A stretch of DNA of 35,484 bases from a bacterium (GTDB lineage: Bacteria > Patescibacteriota > Minisyncoccia > 1-14-0-10-42-19), in assembly GCA_030690215.1 (NCBI GenBank), contig JAUYHD010000030.1:1-35484 (forward strand), read 5' to 3'. The translations under genes and the position numbers were made by a program. The notes beneath the pieces were generated by a model that was not told the DNA's origin, searched no databases, and saw only the letters and a program-made list of their open reading frames with translations. Every line of letters starts with the position of its first letter. The stretch's first letter is position 1. Below are positions 2,870 through 35,484 of the stretch, piece by piece.

Positions 2870-2899
2870 AGTGTAGAGGAAAATAAATCAAAATGTCAA
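2870..2899 (-). promoter_or_regulatory. groES promoter (-35 TTGACA, -10 TACACT)
   Basis: Read on the minus strand, TTGACA (2899-2894) is followed after 18 bases by TACACT (2875-2870). The CIRCE-like operator begins three bases further on. The first four bases of the -35 box (TTGA) are also the target-site duplication of the palindromic element at 2900-3038. Confidence 0.75.
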
Positions 2900-3038
2900 C
2901 CCCGTTTGGCTAAATCGAAAGCTGCATCTACGTCTTACGGATACTATATATGATTAAAGAAACAATGGTCCGTTGAGTGTGCTATCAAGACCCACTAGTA
3001 GATGCAGCAGTAAGACGATTCGATTTTGCCTAACGGGG
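2900..3038. mobile_element. Palindromic mobile element, family B copy 1 (139 bp)
   Basis: It begins CCCCGTTTGGCTAAATCGA and ends with the reverse complement of CCCCGTTAGGCAAAATCGA. The inverted arms continue imperfectly through GTCTTAC and GCTGCATCTAC for roughly 45 bases. It is flanked by identical TCAA at 2896-2899 and 3039-3042. The internal block ATCTACGTCTTACGGATACT plus ATTAAAGAAACAA is shared with copies at 6207-6527 and 35380-35484. There is no coding capacity. It lies between uvrA and the groES promoter. Confidence 0.88.
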
Positions 3039-3056
3039 TCAAGCGGTTGTACTACC

Positions 3057-3084
3057 AAAAACAGAGGGCGCATCCTCTGTTTTT
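3057..3084. terminator. uvrA terminator
   Basis: AAAAACAGAGG (3057-3067) pairs with CCTCTGTTTTT (3074-3084). The hairpin overlaps the uvrA stop codon and is followed by T residues on the minus strand. Confidence 0.8.
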
Positions 3085-6007
3085 AAAGCCATTCCCCCGT
3101 ATACGACTGCTTGTTCTTTTTCACGTCTGCCGGGGTTCCTGCAACAATTATCTCCCCTCCGCCATCTCCTCCTTCGGGCCCCAAATCAATTAACCAATCG
3201 GTATTCCGCAAAACATCAATATTATGCTCGGTTACTATAACCGTATTCCCCTTATCAACAAGCGCGCGAAGGACTGTCAGCAGTTTTTGGATATCTTCGG
3301 CATGAAGGCCTGTTGTCGGCTCATCCAATATGTAAAGCGTTTTTCCTGTTGCTTTCTTCGCAAGCTCTGTTGCGAGCTTTACTCGTTGCGCCTCCCCTCC
3401 GGACAACGTTGTAGCCGGCTGACCCAGTTTGATGTAACTTAAACCAACCTGGTTGAGTGTTTCTATTTTTGATTTAATAAGAGGCACATTCTTGAAAAAA
3501 ACAAGCGCTTCTTCTACGGACATATCAAGAACGTGGGCAATATTTTTATCATTATAATGAATGGCAAGCGCTTCACGATTATAACGCGCTCCTTCGCACT
3601 CTTCACACGGCACATAGATATCGGGAAGAAAATGCATTTCAATTTTTTTTACCCCTTGGCCTTCGCACTCTTCGCATCGTCCGCCTTTTACATTAAAACT
3701 GAACCGTCCTGCTTTGTACCCGCGCGCGCGCGCGTCTCTTGTTTTTGAAAACAAATCGCGAATGCCCCCAAATGCGCCCGTATATGTCGCGGGGTTAGAC
3801 CGCGGAGTGCGCCCGATTGGAGATTGGTCAACCACTACCGCCTTATCGATATACGAAAGCCCCTCTATTGCCTGATGCGCTCCCGGCACAGCCCGCGATC
3901 CATAAAAGTGCTGCATAAGCGCGCGTGACAAAATATCGTTAATAAGCGTTGATTTTCCCGATCCCGAAACCCCCGAAATACCGACCAATTTCCCCAGCGG
4001 AATATGTGCGGTAATATTTTTCAAATTATGCTCTTTCGCGCCCCGTATTGTTACTGTCTGAAGTTTTGATTTTTGGGGTTTGCCCCGACTTTGTCCAGAA
4101 TCCTCGATGAAATCGGGATGTGGTATTTGGATTTTGTCATTTGGCATTTGAATGCCTGAAACACCCACCTTCTTCCTTCCTGCCAAATAATCCCCCGTCA
4201 ACGTCTTTGCTTTTTTAAGTTCATCATACGTTCCTTCAAAAATAATTTTTCCTCCATGAACACCCGCGCCCTCTCCTAAATCAATAATCCAGTCGGCTTC
4301 TTCCATTGTTTTCTTGTCATGCTCAACAACAAGAACAGTATTGCCGAGTTCCCGCAATTCTTTGAGCGTCTGAATCAGCCGATAGTGATCTCGCGCATGA
4401 AGTCCGATTGACGGCTCATCCAACACATAAATAACACCCGACAAGCCCGAGCCGATTTGCGTTGCGAGCCGCACCCGTTGGGCTTCTCCTCCGGAGAGCG
4501 TGGTTGACTGCCTCTCAAGCGACACATAGCCCAAACCGACATTCGCCAAAAACTGCAATCGCCGTTCCATCTCTTTTAGTAAAGGGGTGGCAATCGCTTC
4601 TTCCTGCCTGTTCTTTTTTACTTCCTGTATTATTTTTTGCGCAAATCCAATCGCATCATCGGCAGACAACGCCGAAACATCCGCGATAGACGTATTAAGA
4701 ATTTTCACTCCCAATGATTCGGGACGAAGACGCTTGCCGAGGCATGCAGGACAATCATTCATATACATATACCGTTCGACCTCTGCGCGCGTCCATTCCG
4801 AATCGGTTTCGCGCCACCTCCGTTCCAAATTGGGAATTACTCCTTCAAAAAATTCCTTCGGTTTTCCTGTTTCGGTTTCTGTTTTTTCTTCGCCGCGCAA
4901 AATAAGATTAATAACTTTTTTGGGGAGCGCGCCAACAGGCGTATCCAAAGAAAATTTATAGCGCTCCGAAAGATCTTCCAGCATCCACCAATACCATGAC
5001 TGCCTGCCAACCCGGTGTGACGCGCGTGCCCATGGCTGAATTGCCCCTTCGGCAAGCGTGAGTTTTTTATTTGGCATCACAAGATCCGAGTCAACTTCAA
5101 GCTGATGACCAAGCCCCGTACAACGCTCGCATGCGCCATATGGGCTATTAAAGCTGAAAAGCCGCGGCTCAATCGGCGGGAGAGAAACGTGGCAGACGGG
5201 GCACGAAAAATTCTCCGAAAAAAGAACTTCTCTGTTTTTTGAACCCGAAGCGTCTTCTTTATATTCAAGCACCAGCGCTATTCCTTTCGTAAGCGCAAGC
5301 GTCGTTTCCAAAGAATCGTGAAGACGGGCGCGCTCCATATTTTTATCCACGGAAAGACGATCTACCACTACTTCAATAGAGTGCTTCCGCTTCGGATCCA
5401 AATACAAATCAAGCGCCTCTTCAATCCGCATCACCCCGCCATCCAAACGAACGCGCAAAAATCCCTGCTTTTGTATTTCTCCCAGGATTTTTTTATGCTC
5501 TCCTTTTTTTGCGCGAATCACCGGAGCGGCAATCATAACAAACGCTCCTTTAAATTCCTTGCTGATGGTTTTGATCATCTCATCAATGGTCTGTTTTTTT
5601 ACCGCCCGCCCGCATATAGGACAATGGGGCTTCCCAATGCGAGCAAATAAAATTCTCAAATAATCGTAAATTTCGGTGATGGTCCCGACTGTGGAACGCG
5701 GATTTTTTGATACGGATCGCTGATCAATTGCAATTGCGGGTGACAAACCCTCAATCTTGTCTACATCCGGTTTTTCGCGAACGCCCAAAAATTGGCGGGC
5801 GTAACTTGAAAGAGACTCCACAAAACGCCGCTCGGCTTCCGCGTAAATCGTATCAAACGCAAGCGAGGACTTTCCTGACCCGGAAAGTCCCGTAATAACA
5901 ACGAGTTTGTTTTTTGGTATCTCAAGCGAGATATTTTTGAGATTGTGAGTACGCGCACCTTTTATGCGTATAAAGTCCGTTTCATTTGTGATCTTCTTTG
6001 CTGTCAT
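3083..6007 (-). CDS. uvrA: Excinuclease ABC subunit UvrA
   Basis: This is the ATP-dependent damage-recognition subunit of nucleotide excision repair, which dimerises and loads UvrB. Two ABC modules are visible: Walker [16 protein letters not shown] near the N-terminus and [10 protein letters not shown] in the second half, each with a signature (LSGGEAQRV) and Walker B ([11 protein letters not shown] and [11 protein letters not shown]). Zinc-type Cys pairs occur at CPICG, CPVC, CERC, CPAC and CEEC. Length is about 974 residues, slightly above usual. I place the start at the ATG at 6007 (MTAKK); the longer frame begins with a TTG in the flank of a mobile element and covers the promoter. The linker before the second module carries an in-frame low-complexity insert (about 4050-4175). 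It is the first gene after the element array and has its own promoter. Confidence 0.97.
4060..4170 (-). repeat. Low-complexity in-frame insert in uvrA
   Basis: On the minus strand the DNA reads as short repeated units such as CAAATGCCAAATGACAAAA and CAAAAATCAAAACTTCAG. It encodes about 35 residues ([17 protein letters not shown] onward to SKLQT) between the first ABC module and the conserved [13 protein letters not shown]. Most UvrA proteins have a shorter linker here. The same style of sequence occurs inside tsaD and valS. Confidence 0.6.
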
Positions 6008-6035: not shown

Positions 6036-6064
6036 AGTATAGGGATTTTTGGGGCCGGGGTCAA
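6036..6064 (-). promoter_or_regulatory. uvrA promoter (-35 TTGACC, -10 TATACT)
   Basis: On the minus strand TTGACC (6064-6059) is separated by exactly 17 bases from TATACT (6041-6036), a close match to a housekeeping promoter. The start codon at 6007 would lie about 20 bases after the transcription start. TTGA of the -35 box is also the target duplication beside element D. Confidence 0.78.
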
Positions 6065-6202
6065 CCCCGTCAGTAGAAAATAGCATGGTTGTTCTCACGC
6101 CTCTTTTGTATCAACACAAGGGAACGTGCTTAGGCGTTGGGAAAAGGAAAGAGATATATATCTATCGAACAACAAAGGCGTTATGCTATTTCCACTACGG
6201 GG
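6065..6202. mobile_element. Palindromic mobile element, family D (138 bp)
   Basis: The left end CCCCGTCAGTAGAAAATAGC matches the reverse complement of the right end (CCCCGTAGTGGAAATAGCAT) with one indel and one mismatch over about 21 bases. TCAA flanks it at 6061-6064 and 6203-6206. The interior shares no obvious sequence with families A or B, but the length and terminal CCCCGT are the same. No second copy is seen in the window. Confidence 0.8.
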
Positions 6203-6245
6203 TCAACCCCCCCCCCCGTTTGGCTAAATCGAAGCGTCTTCCTTG

Positions 6246-6382
6246 CCCCGTAAGACACTATCACATAATGCATTCTTGTAAGTCCTTGTGTGGACAATAT
6301 ATGTACAATGAAAAAGAAATCTACTATACACATAATAAAAACGGCGAACGCATGACTTACCATGTGATAGTGTCAAACGGGG
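6246..6382. mobile_element. Palindromic mobile element, family A copy 1 (137 bp), nested in family B
   Basis: It starts CCCCGTAAGACACTATCACA and ends with ATGTGATAGTGTC then AAACGGGG. Arms GACACTATCACAT and ATGTGATAGTGTC pair perfectly, then GTAAGTC with GACTTAC. The internal motifs ATGCATTCTT (left) and GGCGAACGCATGAC (right) recur in copies 2 and 3. It is flanked by CTTG at 6242-6245 and 6383-6386. Because it interrupts a B element, it moved after B was in place. Confidence 0.9.
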
Positions 6383-6479
6383 CTTGCTGCATCTACCGGC
6401 AAGTCTCGATGGCGTGTTCGACAGACCGTTGTTTCTTTAATCATATATAGTATCCGTAAGACGTAGATATTTTGCTTTT

Positions 6480-6506
6480 CTGCCGAAGGCAGATCTGCCT
6501 TTGGCA
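6480..6506. repeat. Short palindrome CTGCC..AGATCT..GGCA inside family B copy 2
   Basis: CTGCCGAAGGCAGATCTGCC followed by TTTGGCA is a near-perfect palindrome centred on AGATCT. It is a variant of the in-gene palindromes centred on GGATCC in uvrC (7156-7185) and valS (32474-32503), so this small repeat also invades the larger elements. Confidence 0.7.
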
Positions 6507-6531
6507 TGACGATTTTGCCTAACGGGGTCAA

Positions 6532-6574
6532 ACCCGTTAGATAGAGCTTCGTAAAGCTTGCCCATCTAACGGGG
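6532..6574. mobile_element. Short palindromic element, family C copy 1 (43 bp)
   Basis: ACCCGTTAGATAGAGC at the left is mirrored by GCTTGCCCATCTAACGGGG at the right. TCAA flanks it on both sides (6528-6531 and 6575-6578). It may be an internally deleted relative of the longer elements. A second copy lies at 21567-21603. Confidence 0.7.
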
Positions 6575-6620
6575 TCAAGACATGTATGCGTGTGGATGGT
6601 GAAATCCGCCATAAAAATAA

Positions 6621-6702: not shown

Positions 6703-7011
6703 CTAATCCAGGCCGTATTCTCTAAAACACTCTTCGGGGGTTTTCGCATTTAAAATAAAATCGCGATCTGCGTTCTTATTGTCTTTGAGAAAAAAAAGCT
6801 TGTCTACATGATTGAATAAAGAAAACCCTAAAATTGAATTGCTTTTCTTCCACCGTCGAGCAGAATTCTTTAATATATTTAAAGTCTTTGTCACTGCTTC
6901 TTCTACCGTATCTGTGGCAAATGATATTTTTTTTCTGGGTCTCCTTATATGGTCTTTTTCATCATCTGAATCAATGTTCCCAATCACATAATGTCCTGTC
7001 CAATGATACAT
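6703..7011 (-). CDS. Hypothetical protein, 102 residues
   Basis: I do not recognise a family. It begins MYHWTGHYVIGNIDSDDEK, has a central basic stretch (KNSARRWKKSN) and ends TPEECFREYGLD, with no signal peptide or membrane segment. The start has a CCTCC complement (AGGAGG on the minus strand, about 7022-7025) upstream, and a good terminator follows, so it is probably a real monocistronic gene. It sits between the element array and uvrC, divergent from uvrC. The mixed charged composition suggests a small soluble protein. Confidence 0.65.
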   Translation of the reverse strand: MYHWTGHYVIGNIDSDDEKDHIRRPRKKISFATDTVEEAVTKTLNILKNSARRWKKSNSILGFSLFNHVDKLFFLKDNKNADRDFILNAKTPEECFREYGLD

Positions 7012-7104: not shown

Positions 7105-8406
7105 ATGAATACAAAATCAAAAAACATCCCCCATACTCCCGGCATATATTTTTTCTCCGCCCGAGGCGGATCCGCCTTTGGCGGAAAAAACAAAATAATT
7201 TATATCGGCAAGGCAAAAAATCTTAAAGAGAGAATTTCTTCATATTTCTCAAGACAGAATACTGATATCCGAAAAATTAATATGGTGCGCGAAGCAACCA
7301 CGCTTATATGGCAAGAAACGCTCTCCGATGCGGAAGCCCTCATACAAGAATCCGAGCTGATAAAAAAATACCGGCCAAAATATAATATTGTCATGCGCGA
7401 CGATAAGCAGTATTTTTATGTACGCTTTTCGGATGAAGAATTCCCCCGCATCACGCTCACCCATCAACCAAATAAAACTCAAAGTTCAAAACCCAAAGCT
7501 CAAAGCTCCTTTATCGGTCCGTTTACCGACGGCGCATCTCTCAAACAAACCCTCAAACTGTTACGGCGGGCTTTCCCATATTGCACATGCAAAGAAAAAC
7601 ACAAACGCATATGCCAGCACGCCTCAATCGGAAATTGTTTGGGTATATGCTGTATAGATAGCGCATACAAAAAAGCGCTCTTCCCCGACTATACGCATCG
7701 CGTATCGCACTATAAAAAAAATGTTCACAGTATAAAAAATGTTCTTTCGGGAAAAGGAAAAAAGATGACCGAACAGATGCAAAAAGATATGGCTCGGCTT
7801 TCGCGTATCCAACACTATGAAAAAGCCGCCCTCATACGCGATCAATTATACGCGCTGGAAAATATTTTCTCCCATAAGCACATACTCAGGCGGGAAGAAA
7901 CCGTATATGCGCACAAAGGCGTTGTGTATCTTAAGAACATTCTCCACACACACGAAAACCCAAAAAGAATAGAAGCGTATGACATCTCAAACATCCAAGG
8001 AAAAGATGCGGTAGGTTCAATGGTCGTATTTACTGACGGCAAGCCGGATAAAAATGAATACCGGAAATTTAACATACGTCTGCCTGCCCGCCCCAATGAT
8101 GTCGGCATGATGAAAGAAATAATTGCCAGACGATTTTCAAACCCATGGCCGCTCCCGGATGTTATGGTCATTGACGGAGGTAAGGCGCAATTGAATGCAG
8201 CGTTGCATGGAATCAAGAATCAAGAATTAAGAATTAAGGTTATTGCGCTTGCGAAACGAGAGGAAGAATTATATCTCCCAAGCGGAAAAATTATAAAATT
8301 AAAAGAGGGGCCAAAACCCCTCCTGCATCTCTTGCAATATATCCGCAACGAAGCGCATCGGTTTGCGATTACTTTCCACCGCAGAAAACGCGGCAAAAAC
8401 ATTTAA
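7105..8406 (+). CDS. uvrC: Excinuclease ABC subunit UvrC, lacking the C-terminal HhH region
   Basis: UvrC makes both incisions in nucleotide excision repair. Visible parts are the GIY-YIG nuclease (PGIYFF then IIYIGKAKNLKERISSYF, residues about 12-50), the Cys cluster CTCKEKHKRICQHASIGNCLG near 155-175, a UVR-type helix region (MARLSRIQHYEKAALIRDQL, near 230-250) and the RNase H-like domain (IEAYDISNIQG, MVVFTDG, DVMVIDGGKAQL). The protein ends at HRRKRGKNI after 433 residues, so the tandem helix-hairpin-helix DNA-binding tail of typical 600-residue UvrC proteins is missing. The GIY-YIG domain contains a palindrome-encoded insert (SARGGSAFGG), and repeat-like inserts also occur at about 7465-7510 and 8205-8240. 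It is convergent with and overlaps the mgtC-like gene by 4 bp. Confidence 0.95.
   Translation: MNTKSKNIPHTPGIYFFSARGGSAFGGKNKIIYIGKAKNLKERISSYFSRQNTDIRKINMVREATTLIWQETLSDAEALIQESELIKKYRPKYNIVMRDDKQYFYVRFSDEEFPRITLTHQPNKTQSSKPKAQSSFIGPFTDGASLKQTLKLLRRAFPYCTCKEKHKRICQHASIGNCLGICCIDSAYKKALFPDYTHRVSHYKKNVHSIKNVLSGKGKKMTEQMQKDMARLSRIQHYEKAALIRDQLYALENIFSHKHILRREETVYAHKGVVYLKNILHTHENPKRIEAYDISNIQGKDAVGSMVVFTDGKPDKNEYRKFNIRLPARPNDVGMMKEIIARRFSNPWPLPDVMVIDGGKAQLNAALHGIKNQELRIKVIALAKREEELYLPSGKIIKLKEGPKPLLHLLQYIRNEAHRFAITFHRRKRGKNI
7151..7190. repeat. Palindromic repeat in frame in uvrC
   Basis: A nearly perfect 40-bp palindrome is centred on GGATCC, with arms CCGCC..GAGGCGGATCCGCCTTTGGCGG. In the uvrC frame it encodes SARGGSAFGGK, splitting the GIY-YIG motif between PGIYFF and NKIIYIGKAKN. 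The valS copy at 32474-32503 is read in the same frame. Confidence 0.85.
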
Positions 8407-11777: not shown

Positions 11778-11816
11778 ACTGTCAGTATATCATCATACGC
11801 GGGCCGGGACACTTGA

Positions 11817-11955
11817 CCCCGTAGAGCAATATCATATGATGCATTCTTATAAGTCATTATGCGAAACAATATTTCCGAAAAAAAATTAGAATGCAATTGT
11901 TTTTGTACTTTAGGCGGCGAATGCATGACTTATTATATGATATTGTCTTACGGGG
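11817..11955. mobile_element. Palindromic mobile element, family A copy 2 (139 bp)
   Basis: It starts CCCCGTAGAGCAATATCATA and ends TATGATATTGTCTTACGGGG. ATAAGTCAT pairs with ATGACTTAT further in, and the internal motif is GGCGAATGCATGAC. It is flanked by TTGA at 11813-11816 and 11956-11959. It lies between the divergent beta-CASP and aminopeptidase genes, so it sits in a shared promoter region. Confidence 0.9.
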
Positions 11956-11982
11956 TTGATTTTTTGCTTTTTTTGTTATAGT
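11956..11982 (+). promoter_or_regulatory. Possible aminopeptidase promoter using the duplicated TTGA
   Basis: TTGATT (11956-11961), whose TTGA is the right-hand duplication of the family A element, is followed by TATAGT (11977-11982) with a 15-bp spacer. TAGTAT at 11979 would give 17. The spacing is suboptimal, so this is a candidate only. Confidence 0.4.
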
Positions 11983-25316: not shown

Positions 25317-25334
25317 ACTATCCAATATAGCACA

Positions 25335-25472
25335 CCCCGTGAGACAATATCTCGTGATGCATTCTTATACGTCATTGAACGGAACACAATCAAAATAGCA
25401 AGCAAAAGACATAAAGATTTTGTGCTTGGTAAGGCGAACGCATGACGTATTACGCGATATTGCTCTACGGGG
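25335..25472. mobile_element. Palindromic mobile element, family A copy 3 (138 bp)
   Basis: It starts CCCCGTGAGACAATATCTCG and ends CGCGATATTGCTCTACGGGG. ATACGTCAT pairs with ATGACGTAT further in, and the internal motif is GGCGAACGCATGAC. It is flanked by CACA at 25331-25334 and 25473-25476. It lies immediately upstream of recJ. Confidence 0.9.
25364..25393 (-). promoter_or_regulatory. Possible outward promoter inside family A copy 3, facing recJ
   Basis: On the minus strand TTGATT (25393-25388) is followed after 18 bases by TATAAG (25369-25364). Transcription would start about 40 bases before the recJ ATG. No better promoter fits between the element and recJ. Confidence 0.45.
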
Positions 25473-25518
25473 CACATTGCCTATGGAGACAAGGTTGGAG
25501 CATCACTCAATACAAAAA

Positions 25519-31126: not shown

Positions 31127-33460
31127 ATGCCCAAAGAATTAGAAAAGCAATACAACCCCCACGATATAGAATCAAACATTTACCGGATATGGACAGAATC
31201 CGGCTTTTTTAATCCGGACAATCTTCCGCCTCGCCACACAAAGCCATTTACCATTGTCATTCCTCCCCCGAATATTACGGGCTCCCTTCATATGGGCCAT
31301 GCCCTCAATGCAACGATTCAGGATATTCTTATTCGGAAAAGGCGCATGGAGGGATACAAAACGCTTTGGCTCCCCGGAACAGATCATGCGGGAATTGCAA
31401 CGCAAAATGTTGTTGAAAAACAGCTGAAAAAAGACGGAACAAGCAGGCATACTCTCGGAAAAGAAAAATTCATTGAAAAAATTTGGGAATGGAAAGAACA
31501 ATATGGAAACACGATTCTTGAACAATTAAAAAAGCTTGGGTCCTCTCTTGATTGGTCGCGAACCCGCTTTACTATGGATGACGATTATCAAGAAGCGGTC
31601 AAAGAAGCGTTCCTTCACTACCACAAAAAGGGACTGCTTTATAAAGCCGAAAAAGTAATCAATTGGTGCACAAGATGCGCTACCTCTCTTTCCGATTTGG
31701 AACTTGAATACGAAGAAGTAAAATCAAAGCTCTACTATATTAAGTATCCGATCAAGAATTCAAAAGATTATATTACTGTCGCCACCACCCGCCCCGAAAC
31801 AATGCTCGGGGACACCGCGGTCGCAGTCAATCCGAAAGATACCCGCTACAAAGACATGGTCGGCAAAACGCTTATTCTCCCAATTCACCATCGTGACATT
31901 CCTATTATCGCCGATGAAAAAGTAGAAAAAGAATTCGGAACGGGAGCTGTCAAAGTAACGCCCGCGCACGATCTTTTGGATGCCGAGATAGGAGAACGGC
32001 ACAACCTTCCGATACTAAAAGTAATCGGACCTGATGGGAAAATGACTACGGAAGCGGGCGCGATATGCAACGGATTAAAAGTAAACGAATGCCGGAAAAA
32101 AGTTATAGAAGCGCTCAAGCAAGAACATGCTTTTGAAAAAGAAGAAGATTACACTCATAATGTCGCGCGATGCCACCGATGCGCGACGCCCATTGAACCG
32201 ATGCCAAGCATGCAATGGTTTTTAAAAATGAAAGATCTTGCCCAGCGCGCAATAGAAGAAGTAGAAAGCGGACGCATTGTATTTCACCCAAAACGCTGGG
32301 AAAAAGTTTATTTTGACTGGCTCAAAAATATAAAAGATTGGACTATCTCGCGCCAAATTTGGTGGGGACACCAGCTTCCTGTTTGGTATTGCATGCAAGA
32401 CCAAACGGGAAGAATTTCTAATTCTCAATTTCCAATTTCCAAACCAATGTCTAAAAATGAAAATTTAAAATTGTCCGCCGAAGGCGGATCCGCTTTTGGC
32501 GGAAAAATTGAAAATTCATCGGCAGACGAACAATTTATGGTTTCCTTAAAAAAGCCGGAGCAATGTCCTTTCTGCGGGCACTGTAAAATGGAACAATCTG
32601 CCGACGTCTTAGATACGTGGTTTTCTTCCGCATTATGGCCGTTTGCAACACTTGGGTGGCCTTTCGACTTCGCTCAAGGTAAACCCAAGCCGGGCTCTAA
32701 TCTTGCAACATACTACCCCACCCAAGTCCTCTCAACAGCGCGCGATATCGTCAATCTCTGGGTTGCGCGCATGATTTTTTCAGGGATGGAATTTATGGGA
32801 GATAAACCGTTTACCGATATCATCATACACGCAACCGTTCTTACCAAAGACGGCAAACGAATGAGCAAATCTCTCGGCACCGGCATTGACCCCATGACGC
32901 TCATAGAAAAATACGGCTCGGATGCAACGCGCTTTGGCCTTATCTGGCAGACTATGGGCAACCAAGATGTTCATTGGTCCGAAGAACACGTACGCGCAGG
33001 AAAAAAATTCCTAAACAAAATATGGAATGCAAGCCGATTTGTATTACAACAAATCGGAATTTCCAATGAGCAATTTTTAATTTCTCCGCCAGAGGCGGAT
33101 CTGCCTCAAGCAGACAATCAATTTCCAAAATCCAATTCTCAAAATATCACAAGTAGCGATAAAAATGTCCTTGAAAGATTCGAACATACAAAAAAGACGG
33201 TCAACATGCACATTGATACATACGAATTCGGGCACGCACTGCATGAGTTATACGACTTTTTTTGGCACACCTATTGCGATACATACCTAGAGCACATAAA
33301 GACAACCGATAAAGAAGAAAGCAAAAAAGTGCTTCTCTATGTTCTTTCGGAATCTCTCAAGCTCCTCCACCCCTTTATTCCCCATATAACAGAGCATATT
33401 TGGGCGATGCTCCCCCATAAAGACAAAAAAATGCTTATAATAGAAGAGTGGCCCGAATAA
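31127..33460 (+). CDS. valS: Valyl-tRNA synthetase
   Basis: A class I synthetase charging tRNA-Val. The HIGH box is PPPNITGSLHMGHALN (about residue 48), the editing domain has TTRPETMLGDTAVAVNP, and the KMSKS box is DGKRMSKSLGTGIDP (about residue 585). A zinc-type site (CHRCATPIEP and CPFCGHC) is present. At 777 residues it lacks the C-terminal coiled-coil arm of most ValRS; it ends MLIIEEWPE after the anticodon domain. Three in-frame repeat-like inserts are visible: SNSQFPISKPMSKNENLKL with SAEGGSAFGGK (about 32410-32530), FDFAQGKPKPG (32661-32693) and SNEQFLISPPEADLPQAD onward (33060-33155). It is the first gene of valS-prsW-hsp20. Confidence 0.96.
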   Translation: MPKELEKQYNPHDIESNIYRIWTESGFFNPDNLPPRHTKPFTIVIPPPNITGSLHMGHALNATIQDILIRKRRMEGYKTLWLPGTDHAGIATQNVVEKQLKKDGTSRHTLGKEKFIEKIWEWKEQYGNTILEQLKKLGSSLDWSRTRFTMDDDYQEAVKEAFLHYHKKGLLYKAEKVINWCTRCATSLSDLELEYEEVKSKLYYIKYPIKNSKDYITVATTRPETMLGDTAVAVNPKDTRYKDMVGKTLILPIHHRDIPIIADEKVEKEFGTGAVKVTPAHDLLDAEIGERHNLPILKVIGPDGKMTTEAGAICNGLKVNECRKKVIEALKQEHAFEKEEDYTHNVARCHRCATPIEPMPSMQWFLKMKDLAQRAIEEVESGRIVFHPKRWEKVYFDWLKNIKDWTISRQIWWGHQLPVWYCMQDQTGRISNSQFPISKPMSKNENLKLSAEGGSAFGGKIENSSADEQFMVSLKKPEQCPFCGHCKMEQSADVLDTWFSSALWPFATLGWPFDFAQGKPKPGSNLATYYPTQVLSTARDIVNLWVARMIFSGMEFMGDKPFTDIIIHATVLTKDGKRMSKSLGTGIDPMTLIEKYGSDATRFGLIWQTMGNQDVHWSEEHVRAGKKFLNKIWNASRFVLQQIGISNEQFLISPPEADLPQADNQFPKSNSQNITSSDKNVLERFEHTKKTVNMHIDTYEFGHALHELYDFFWHTYCDTYLEHIKTTDKEESKKVLLYVLSESLKLLHPFIPHITEHIWAMLPHKDKKMLIIEEWPE
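32474..32503. repeat. Palindromic repeat in frame in valS (same type as in uvrC)
   Basis: TCCGCCGAAGGCGGATCCGC followed by TTTTGGCGGA is a near palindrome centred on GGATCC. It encodes SAEGGSAFGG, in the same frame and orientation as the uvrC copy (SARGGSAFGG). Confidence 0.85.
32660..32680 (+). repeat. TCGACTTCGCTC repeat in valS
   Basis: TCGACTTCGCTC (32664-32675) is read as FDFAQ within a short insert after TLGWP. The same 12 bases occur in reverse orientation near 35181-35192 in non-coding DNA. Confidence 0.6.
33083..33114. repeat. Second GGATCT-centred palindrome in valS, other frame
   Basis: TCTCCGCCAGAGGCGGATCT and GCCTCAAGCAGAC form a degenerate copy of the same palindrome. Here the frame is shifted, giving SPPEADLPQAD. 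It lies in a variable stretch before the anticodon-binding domain. Confidence 0.7.
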
Positions 33461-35153: not shown

Positions 35154-35379
35154 TGCCGCAGCGATGCGCGAGCTGTCCCGAGCGAAGTCGAGGGAAAGGC
35201 GAGCGCCGCGAAAAGGGGGCGAAACGCGTTTACATAGCGTTTCGCCGGAACTTCACAAATAAATTTAATTCTAGTTCCGTGGACGCAATCTATTTCCGTC
35301 AGGAAATATATTCGTGGCCTACGGCAACCAATAGAGGAGTGTTGCACTTACTTGTTGAAATAACTTTACGCGGGGTTGA

Positions 35380-35484
35380 CCCCGTTAGGCAAAATCGAAA
35401 GCCGCATCTACGTATTACGGATACTATGTATGATTAAAGAAACAACAGCCCATTGTCTATACTGTCGAGGATTGCTGGTAGATG
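35380..35484. mobile_element. Palindromic mobile element, family B copy 3, cut by the window end
   Basis: It starts CCCCGTTAGGCAAAATCGAA after TTGA (35376-35379) and then follows copy 1 closely (GCATCTACGTATTACGGATA, ATTAAAGAAACAA). The right arm lies beyond the window, so the second flank cannot be checked. Confidence 0.8.

Follow-up and report, generated by a model that had tools for sequence, protein, structure and literature searches.

The window analysed here, the entire 35,484-bp contig C9 of a 1.02-Mb genome (G000; 38 contigs, 96% complete), carries an array of short palindromic elements between uvrA (3083-6007, minus strand) on one side and a small ORF followed by uvrC (7105-8406) on the other. 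Three elements lie directly next to one another, bounded and separated by four copies of TCAA. On direct reading, the left outer TCAA (6061-6064) is followed by element D, a 138-bp palindrome on the plus strand (CCCCGTCAGTAGAAAATAGCAT...ATGCTATTTCCACTACGGGG; 6065-6202), the D/B junction TCAA (6203-6206), element B (321 bp, plus strand; 6207-6527), the B/C junction TCAA (6528-6531), element C, a 43-bp plus-strand hairpin whose first base is mutated (ACCCGT; 6532-6574), and the right outer TCAA (6575-6578). The junctions read CCGGGG-TCAA-CCCCGT, ACGGGG-TCAA-CCCCCC, ACGGGG-TCAA-ACCCGT and ACGGGG-TCAA-GACATG, and the boundaries agree to the base with those of a first-pass annotation made from the sequence alone. 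Its term "head-to-tail" is a weak description, because the elements are near-palindromes from different families. The small ORF adjoining the array (102 aa, 6703-7011, minus strand) has no Pfam match and lies in a region missing from a genome of the same genus, G002.

Element B, previously taken as a single element, is a composite: a B-family element, in which the first run of C is lengthened to 10 (6207-6216), holds a nested 137-bp family A element (6246-6382, plus strand) between CTTG repeats at 6242-6245 and 6383-6386, the left and right target duplications of the nested copy. The B family numbers 11 in the window genome, where a B-type composite is also found at C30:15102-15382. Element D has a 96% copy at C15:9577-9726 as well as relatives whose flanks are TTTA and CAAA, and its hairpin folds with a z-score of -3.75; element C, from a family of 11, has a z-score of -5.6. 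Solo elements occur elsewhere in the window: a B-family element downstream of uvrA (2900-3038; 2896-3042 with its TCAA on both sides) and two family A elements, at 11817-11955 (TTGA on both sides, 11813-11959) and 25335-25472 (CACA on both sides, 25331-25476), all three on the plus strand, together with a minus-strand B-family element (35376-35484) that has TTGA at its left and is cut off by the contig end. Contigs end or start inside or exactly at elements (here, and at G000:C6:1-5); the repeats therefore interrupt the assembly, and their copy number is underestimated. A second short palindromic repeat, TCCGCCGAAGGCGGATCCGCCTTTGGCGGA, is present at 7153-7189, 32471-32507, 33082-33118 and, within B, 6476-6512; it lies in frame within uvrC (ARGGSAFGG) and within a valyl-tRNA-synthetase-like ORF (AEGGSAFGG).

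The junction pattern is not a product of chance. The 1.02-Mb genome contains 15 instances of ACGGGG-NNNN-CCCCGT, with TCAA/TTGA, CATA, CAAA and TGTG as the spacers, and none of a reversed control pattern. A BLAST search with the array as query gave 81 matches in the genome, and element ends were paired over the 149 kb of stretches around these matches without using the flanks. Identical 4-mers flanked 38 of the 78 blind-paired CCCCGT...ACGGGG ends (permutation mean 5.1, maximum 13 in 2000), and flank identity peaked at k=4 (37/77; k=3 gave 2 and k=5 gave 5). Each of the 38 identical-flank pairs in the window genome is of the form YNNR, and together they comprise 11 different 4-mers, with at least eight different 4-mers seen within one sequence family; the 17 copies of family A carry TTGA/TCAA, TACG, CAAG/CTTG, TATG, TTTG, TTTA and CACA, each on both sides. 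TCAA is a 4-bp target-site duplication that lies outside the elements and is simply TCAA at the window array. As in a MITE, the duplication has a fixed length of exactly 4 bp and a variable sequence, terminal inverted repeats are present (CCCCGT...ACGGGG, 10-14 of 14 terminal bases matching), and the elements are short (29-351 bp) and non-coding, the long ORFs at them being host genes or chance frames. When all loci are taken together, solo targets are YNNR in 54 of 54 cases, and since 45% of them have G at -1 and C at +1, the junction ACGGGG-TCAA-CCCCGT itself fits a favoured target.

As single-stranded DNA, the elements fold with z-scores of -3.7 to -9. Family A has conserved ends and a variable middle, with double compensatory changes in 7 of 27 stem pairs, a pattern compatible with selection that keeps the ends matched or the hairpin intact, and one that arm-to-arm gene conversion would also produce. 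Strong folding, compensatory changes and the intergenic position of nearly all elements (1 of 44 in the window genome lies inside a long ORF) could suggest structural or regulatory hairpins, such as terminators or RNA elements, maintained by selection with TCAA as a conserved flank. We consider this scarcely credible, as whole elements are missing at orthologous sites in G002, which contradicts it, and as the nested insertions and a 4-mer that both varies and is duplicated also stand against it. No Rfam family scored above its gathering score for the elements.

At the array site, G002 reads CCCGGG-TCAA-GATATG with a single TCAA, where the window has CCGGGG-TCAA-array-TCAA-GACATG; the longer right flank after TCAA upstream of uvrA is GATATGAATGTG in G002 and GACATGTATGCG in the window. 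Most of the ~500 bp that follow the array on its right are missing from G002, so that a clean comparison is limited to the immediate junction. G002 also has ~1.26 kb of other DNA (L148:233-1496) between the single TCAA and uvrA, which is missing in the window genome. The site of the solo element at 2900-3038 is likewise empty in G002, reading AAATG-TCAA-GAGAATAT with one TCAA, and in another genus two element sites of G126 each face a single TCAA in G349. For the nested element, the empty site is paralogous: an un-nested B copy at C6:87678 reads GTCTTC-CTTG-CTGTATC, with one CTTG where the composite at C30 has CTTG-element-CTTG. An unbroken array in relatives would speak against independent gains; the same-genus site carries no unit at all, and no relative was found to have some but not all of the units at the uvrA site.

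Arrays elsewhere in the genome mostly keep to one 4-mer each, with the 4-mer differing between arrays, as repeated insertion into a standing duplication predicts. TCAA arrays lie on C9, at C30:1541 and at C30:14916; others use CATA (C8:50490), CAAA (C6:20990), TGTG (C15:13302) and TTGA (C15:9442). Two are one base off, C6:5-586 ending in CATC and C6:106994-107268 in TGAA, and one, C18:54920-55211, is discordant (TTTC/CATA/TTCC). In the set of 44 elements, selected for their similarity to the array, 25 abut either a CCC run or the end of another element; tandem contacts are rare in the unselected terminal-repeat map of G201. The alternative that arrays grow by tandem duplication, or by integration of excised circles at ACGGGG-NNNN-CCCCGT through a site-specific recombinase, gains something from near-identical neighbours in some arrays (the CATA arrays, C18:56885-57180), and homology within the 4-bp spacer would also keep the 4-mer constant within an array. 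It nevertheless appears improbable to us. The arrays in the window, at C30:14916-15382 and at C6:20990-21273 join different families, and with such neighbours in the window tandem duplication cannot explain the array, whereas insertion into a standing duplication does. Strand exchange across a spacer, moreover, does not yield what is seen at new sites, a new 4-mer duplicated on either side, and no recombinase was identified. The first-pass annotation had left two options for the array; a site-specific mechanism is disfavoured because the 4-mer varies, and insertion into the TCAA of earlier copies is supported by a 4-mer that is equal on both sides, differs among copies of a family and is single at empty sites.

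Across the class, TCAA/TTGA outnumbers every other junction, in line with the enrichment of TCAA expected at other junctions; TCAA is the commonest spacer, with other arrays of the window genome using CATA, CAAA, TGTG, TTGA or TAAA. Exact junctions were found in 22 of 384 genomes of the class, some of them by chance, because the reversed control pattern occurs in ~20 genomes too. Counts of element ends reach 118 (G281), 109 (G209) and 94 (G201), against 0-3 in controls, and can differ within a genus (25 in G126, 0 in G349). A scan of GTDB genomes gave 12 contigs, from Paceibacterota, Parcubacteria, Sungiibacteriota, Terrybacteria, Kazan, other Patescibacteria, Omnitrophota and Planctomycetota. 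Elements built in this way are widespread among Patescibacteria, and the ends in other genomes read CCCCGTTAGAA...TTCTAACGGGG. In the Planctomycetota and Omnitrophota, 33 of 52 pairs have identical flanks (5.8 expected). Contamination of metagenome-assembled genomes with CPR sequence could explain some of these cases, although all three genomes concerned hold 55-134 ends. The remaining 19 of the 52 pairs, and several in G201, differ in their two flanks, each of which nevertheless keeps to YNNR; recombination between copies could account for these and for the discordant array on C18. Unequal YNNR flanks are also seen at L113, L118, L119 and L122, and the combination of CTCG/CGAG with TAAA recurs in Sungiibacteriota and Planctomycetota genomes. 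One 128-129-bp element in Terrybacteria is found in both TTGA and CTTG, and a 29-bp element in G209, with a 13-bp stem and a 3-nt loop, sits in TTTA, TTTG, CAAA and CTTG. The latter, together with its 4-bp duplication, makes 33 bp and thereby an in-frame 11-aa insert, NPVRNAISNGV, near protein N-termini (L092:5431-6000, L091:1402-2379). Two matches in viral contigs were each a single hairpin, terminator-like and located behind a small heat-shock-like gene, and not an element.

Our search for a mobilising enzyme covered several kinds of candidate and did not find one that moves the elements. No pair of terminal repeats 0.5-5 kb apart with matching flanks, as an autonomous copy would have, was seen in the maps of G126 and G201 or in the listed parts of G209, G384 and G386. 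The one long pair examined in G201 (~1.8 kb) consists of two separate small elements, and candidates in G209:C42, G209:C121 and G201:C7 are just neighbouring small elements or ordinary genes. PF01609 (DDE_Tnp_1, IS4/IS5-like) was absent from the 6 genomes searched for it, and PF13701 (IS1380-like) from 11. Either an enzyme acts in trans that does not itself carry these ends, or an autonomous copy has decayed, has been lost or lies in DNA that the assemblies do not cover.

A rival reading invokes a Y1 (HUH) transposase. IS200/IS605 elements cut 3' of a fixed tetramer and carry a matching tetramer at their right end, and a REP/RAYT-like single-strand transposition of this kind would give direct repeats without a true duplication. 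The elements are indeed hairpins, the window genome does have two Y1 genes, one of them with a C-family element 54 bp downstream, and the GGGGWSAS motif described in the terminal repeats that flank tyrosine-transposase genes (PMC3733652) resembles GGGGTCAA. Yet a single family here has many 4-mers, equal on both sides, which a carried tetramer would not give; Y1 genes with clear repeats have their own ~20-bp palindromes (for example CAAGACCCGGTCTTG), which differ from the elements, and none lies inside CCCCGT ends; and no Y1 gene was found in G021 or G030, both of which bear elements. We therefore reject Y1/RAYT as the mobiliser and hold transposition of this type to be unlikely, about as much so as growth of the arrays by recombination. 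The CPR Y1/RAYT genes at L066, L067, L068, L069, L070 and L072 each have a palindrome of their own and look like REP/RAYT pairs; the palindromes flanking Y1 genes further include GTCAAAAGTCCGACTTTTGAC, AACACCGAGTGTT, CAACACCGGGTGTTG and TTGGTGACGGCGTCACCAA.

We conclude that the array very probably consists of three mobile elements, or four with the nested copy, all of them non-autonomous near-palindromes belonging to one superfamily, which have stacked by insertion into a resident duplication. They form a real and apparently undescribed family of MITE-like palindromic elements, whose parent IS was not found among the genomes searched, and the family behaves as would a MITE whose transposase cuts with a 4-bp stagger and strongly prefers its own scars. 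We infer staggered-cut chemistry, an order of insertion and a trans-acting enzyme. An integrase would make a 4-bp staggered cut at YNNR, with G|TCAA|C as a favoured context, and join the element, and gap filling would then duplicate the 4 bp. The first insertion would have entered a single TCAA upstream of uvrA, and later elements would have entered a resident TCAA copy exactly, giving TCAA-D-TCAA-B-TCAA-C-TCAA; the G|YNNR|C context made by the element ends presumably draws new copies into the duplication. Against this account stand the sizeable minority of pairs with unequal flanks, the discordant array on C18 and the failure to find a transposase with these ends in the maps examined; nor does ordinary DDE transposition of a double-stranded linear element easily accommodate elements of 29-35 bp. 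More speculatively, a trans-acting, possibly host-encoded enzyme might mobilise hairpins down to 29 bp with a 4-bp staggered cut made on an extruded or single-stranded hairpin, its own scars being favoured targets that lead to stacking, and such a system might be spread over Patescibacteria, Omnitrophota and Planctomycetota; we regard this broader proposal as possible rather than probable.

Few mobile DNA elements that truly duplicate their target would be as small as these. In several ultra-small bacteria they influence the intergenic DNA and the points at which assemblies break, in one genome they add 11-residue protein inserts, and their 4-bp scars record the order of insertion. The self-targeting rule, insertion into their own duplication, offers an entry to a transposase common to several uncultured phyla. 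Our full-text literature searches turned up no account of elements like these from CPR bacteria, no relevant paper on the peptide NPVRN and, as the first-pass annotation had stated, no described family with this arrangement, though absence cannot be proven.

As regards integron cassette arrays, the units here hold no cassette genes, and elements are also scattered singly with new 4-mers. Tandem junctions of IS30, IS911 and IS21 likewise abut inverted repeats a few bp apart and form a reactive junction; those junctions, however, join copies of one IS, whereas different families without a transposase gene are joined here. Bacterial MITEs such as RUP and Correia (PMC10969869) share the short non-coding sequence, terminal inverted repeats, target duplications, high copy number, intergenic position and nested insertions; the present elements differ in having no parent IS that we could find, in reaching down to 29 bp, in stacking into the target duplication and in having ends that are shared between several phyla. 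Rickettsia palindromic elements and CGTC-tagged repeats (PMC3733652) are also palindromic, lack a known transposase and insert in frame into some genes, as does the 11-aa NPVRNxISNGV insert of G209, but they have one fixed tetranucleotide tag (CGTC) at one end, in contrast to CCCCGT/ACGGGG at both ends and a variable YNNR duplication. Similarly, REPs and REPINs with RAYTs, and TIRtrons with TIRYTs (PMC3733652), are hairpins found in singlets and clusters, some TIRtron ends having a GGGG motif; here the examined Y1 genes are not enclosed by CCCCGT ends, and the flanking 4-mers vary and are duplicated. The SaTar multimers of guayule and rice (PMC5907723) join unrelated non-autonomous elements end to end, an arrangement of non-nested elements that their authors in 2018 held to be undescribed in eukaryotes or prokaryotes; those plant elements are Mu-like, lie in microsatellites, make 10-bp duplications and are not nested, whereas nesting occurs here too. 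Rickettsia palindromic elements and REPs (PMC3733652), which differ in having fixed tags, and the plant SaTar multimers are closest in spirit to the arrays described in this work.
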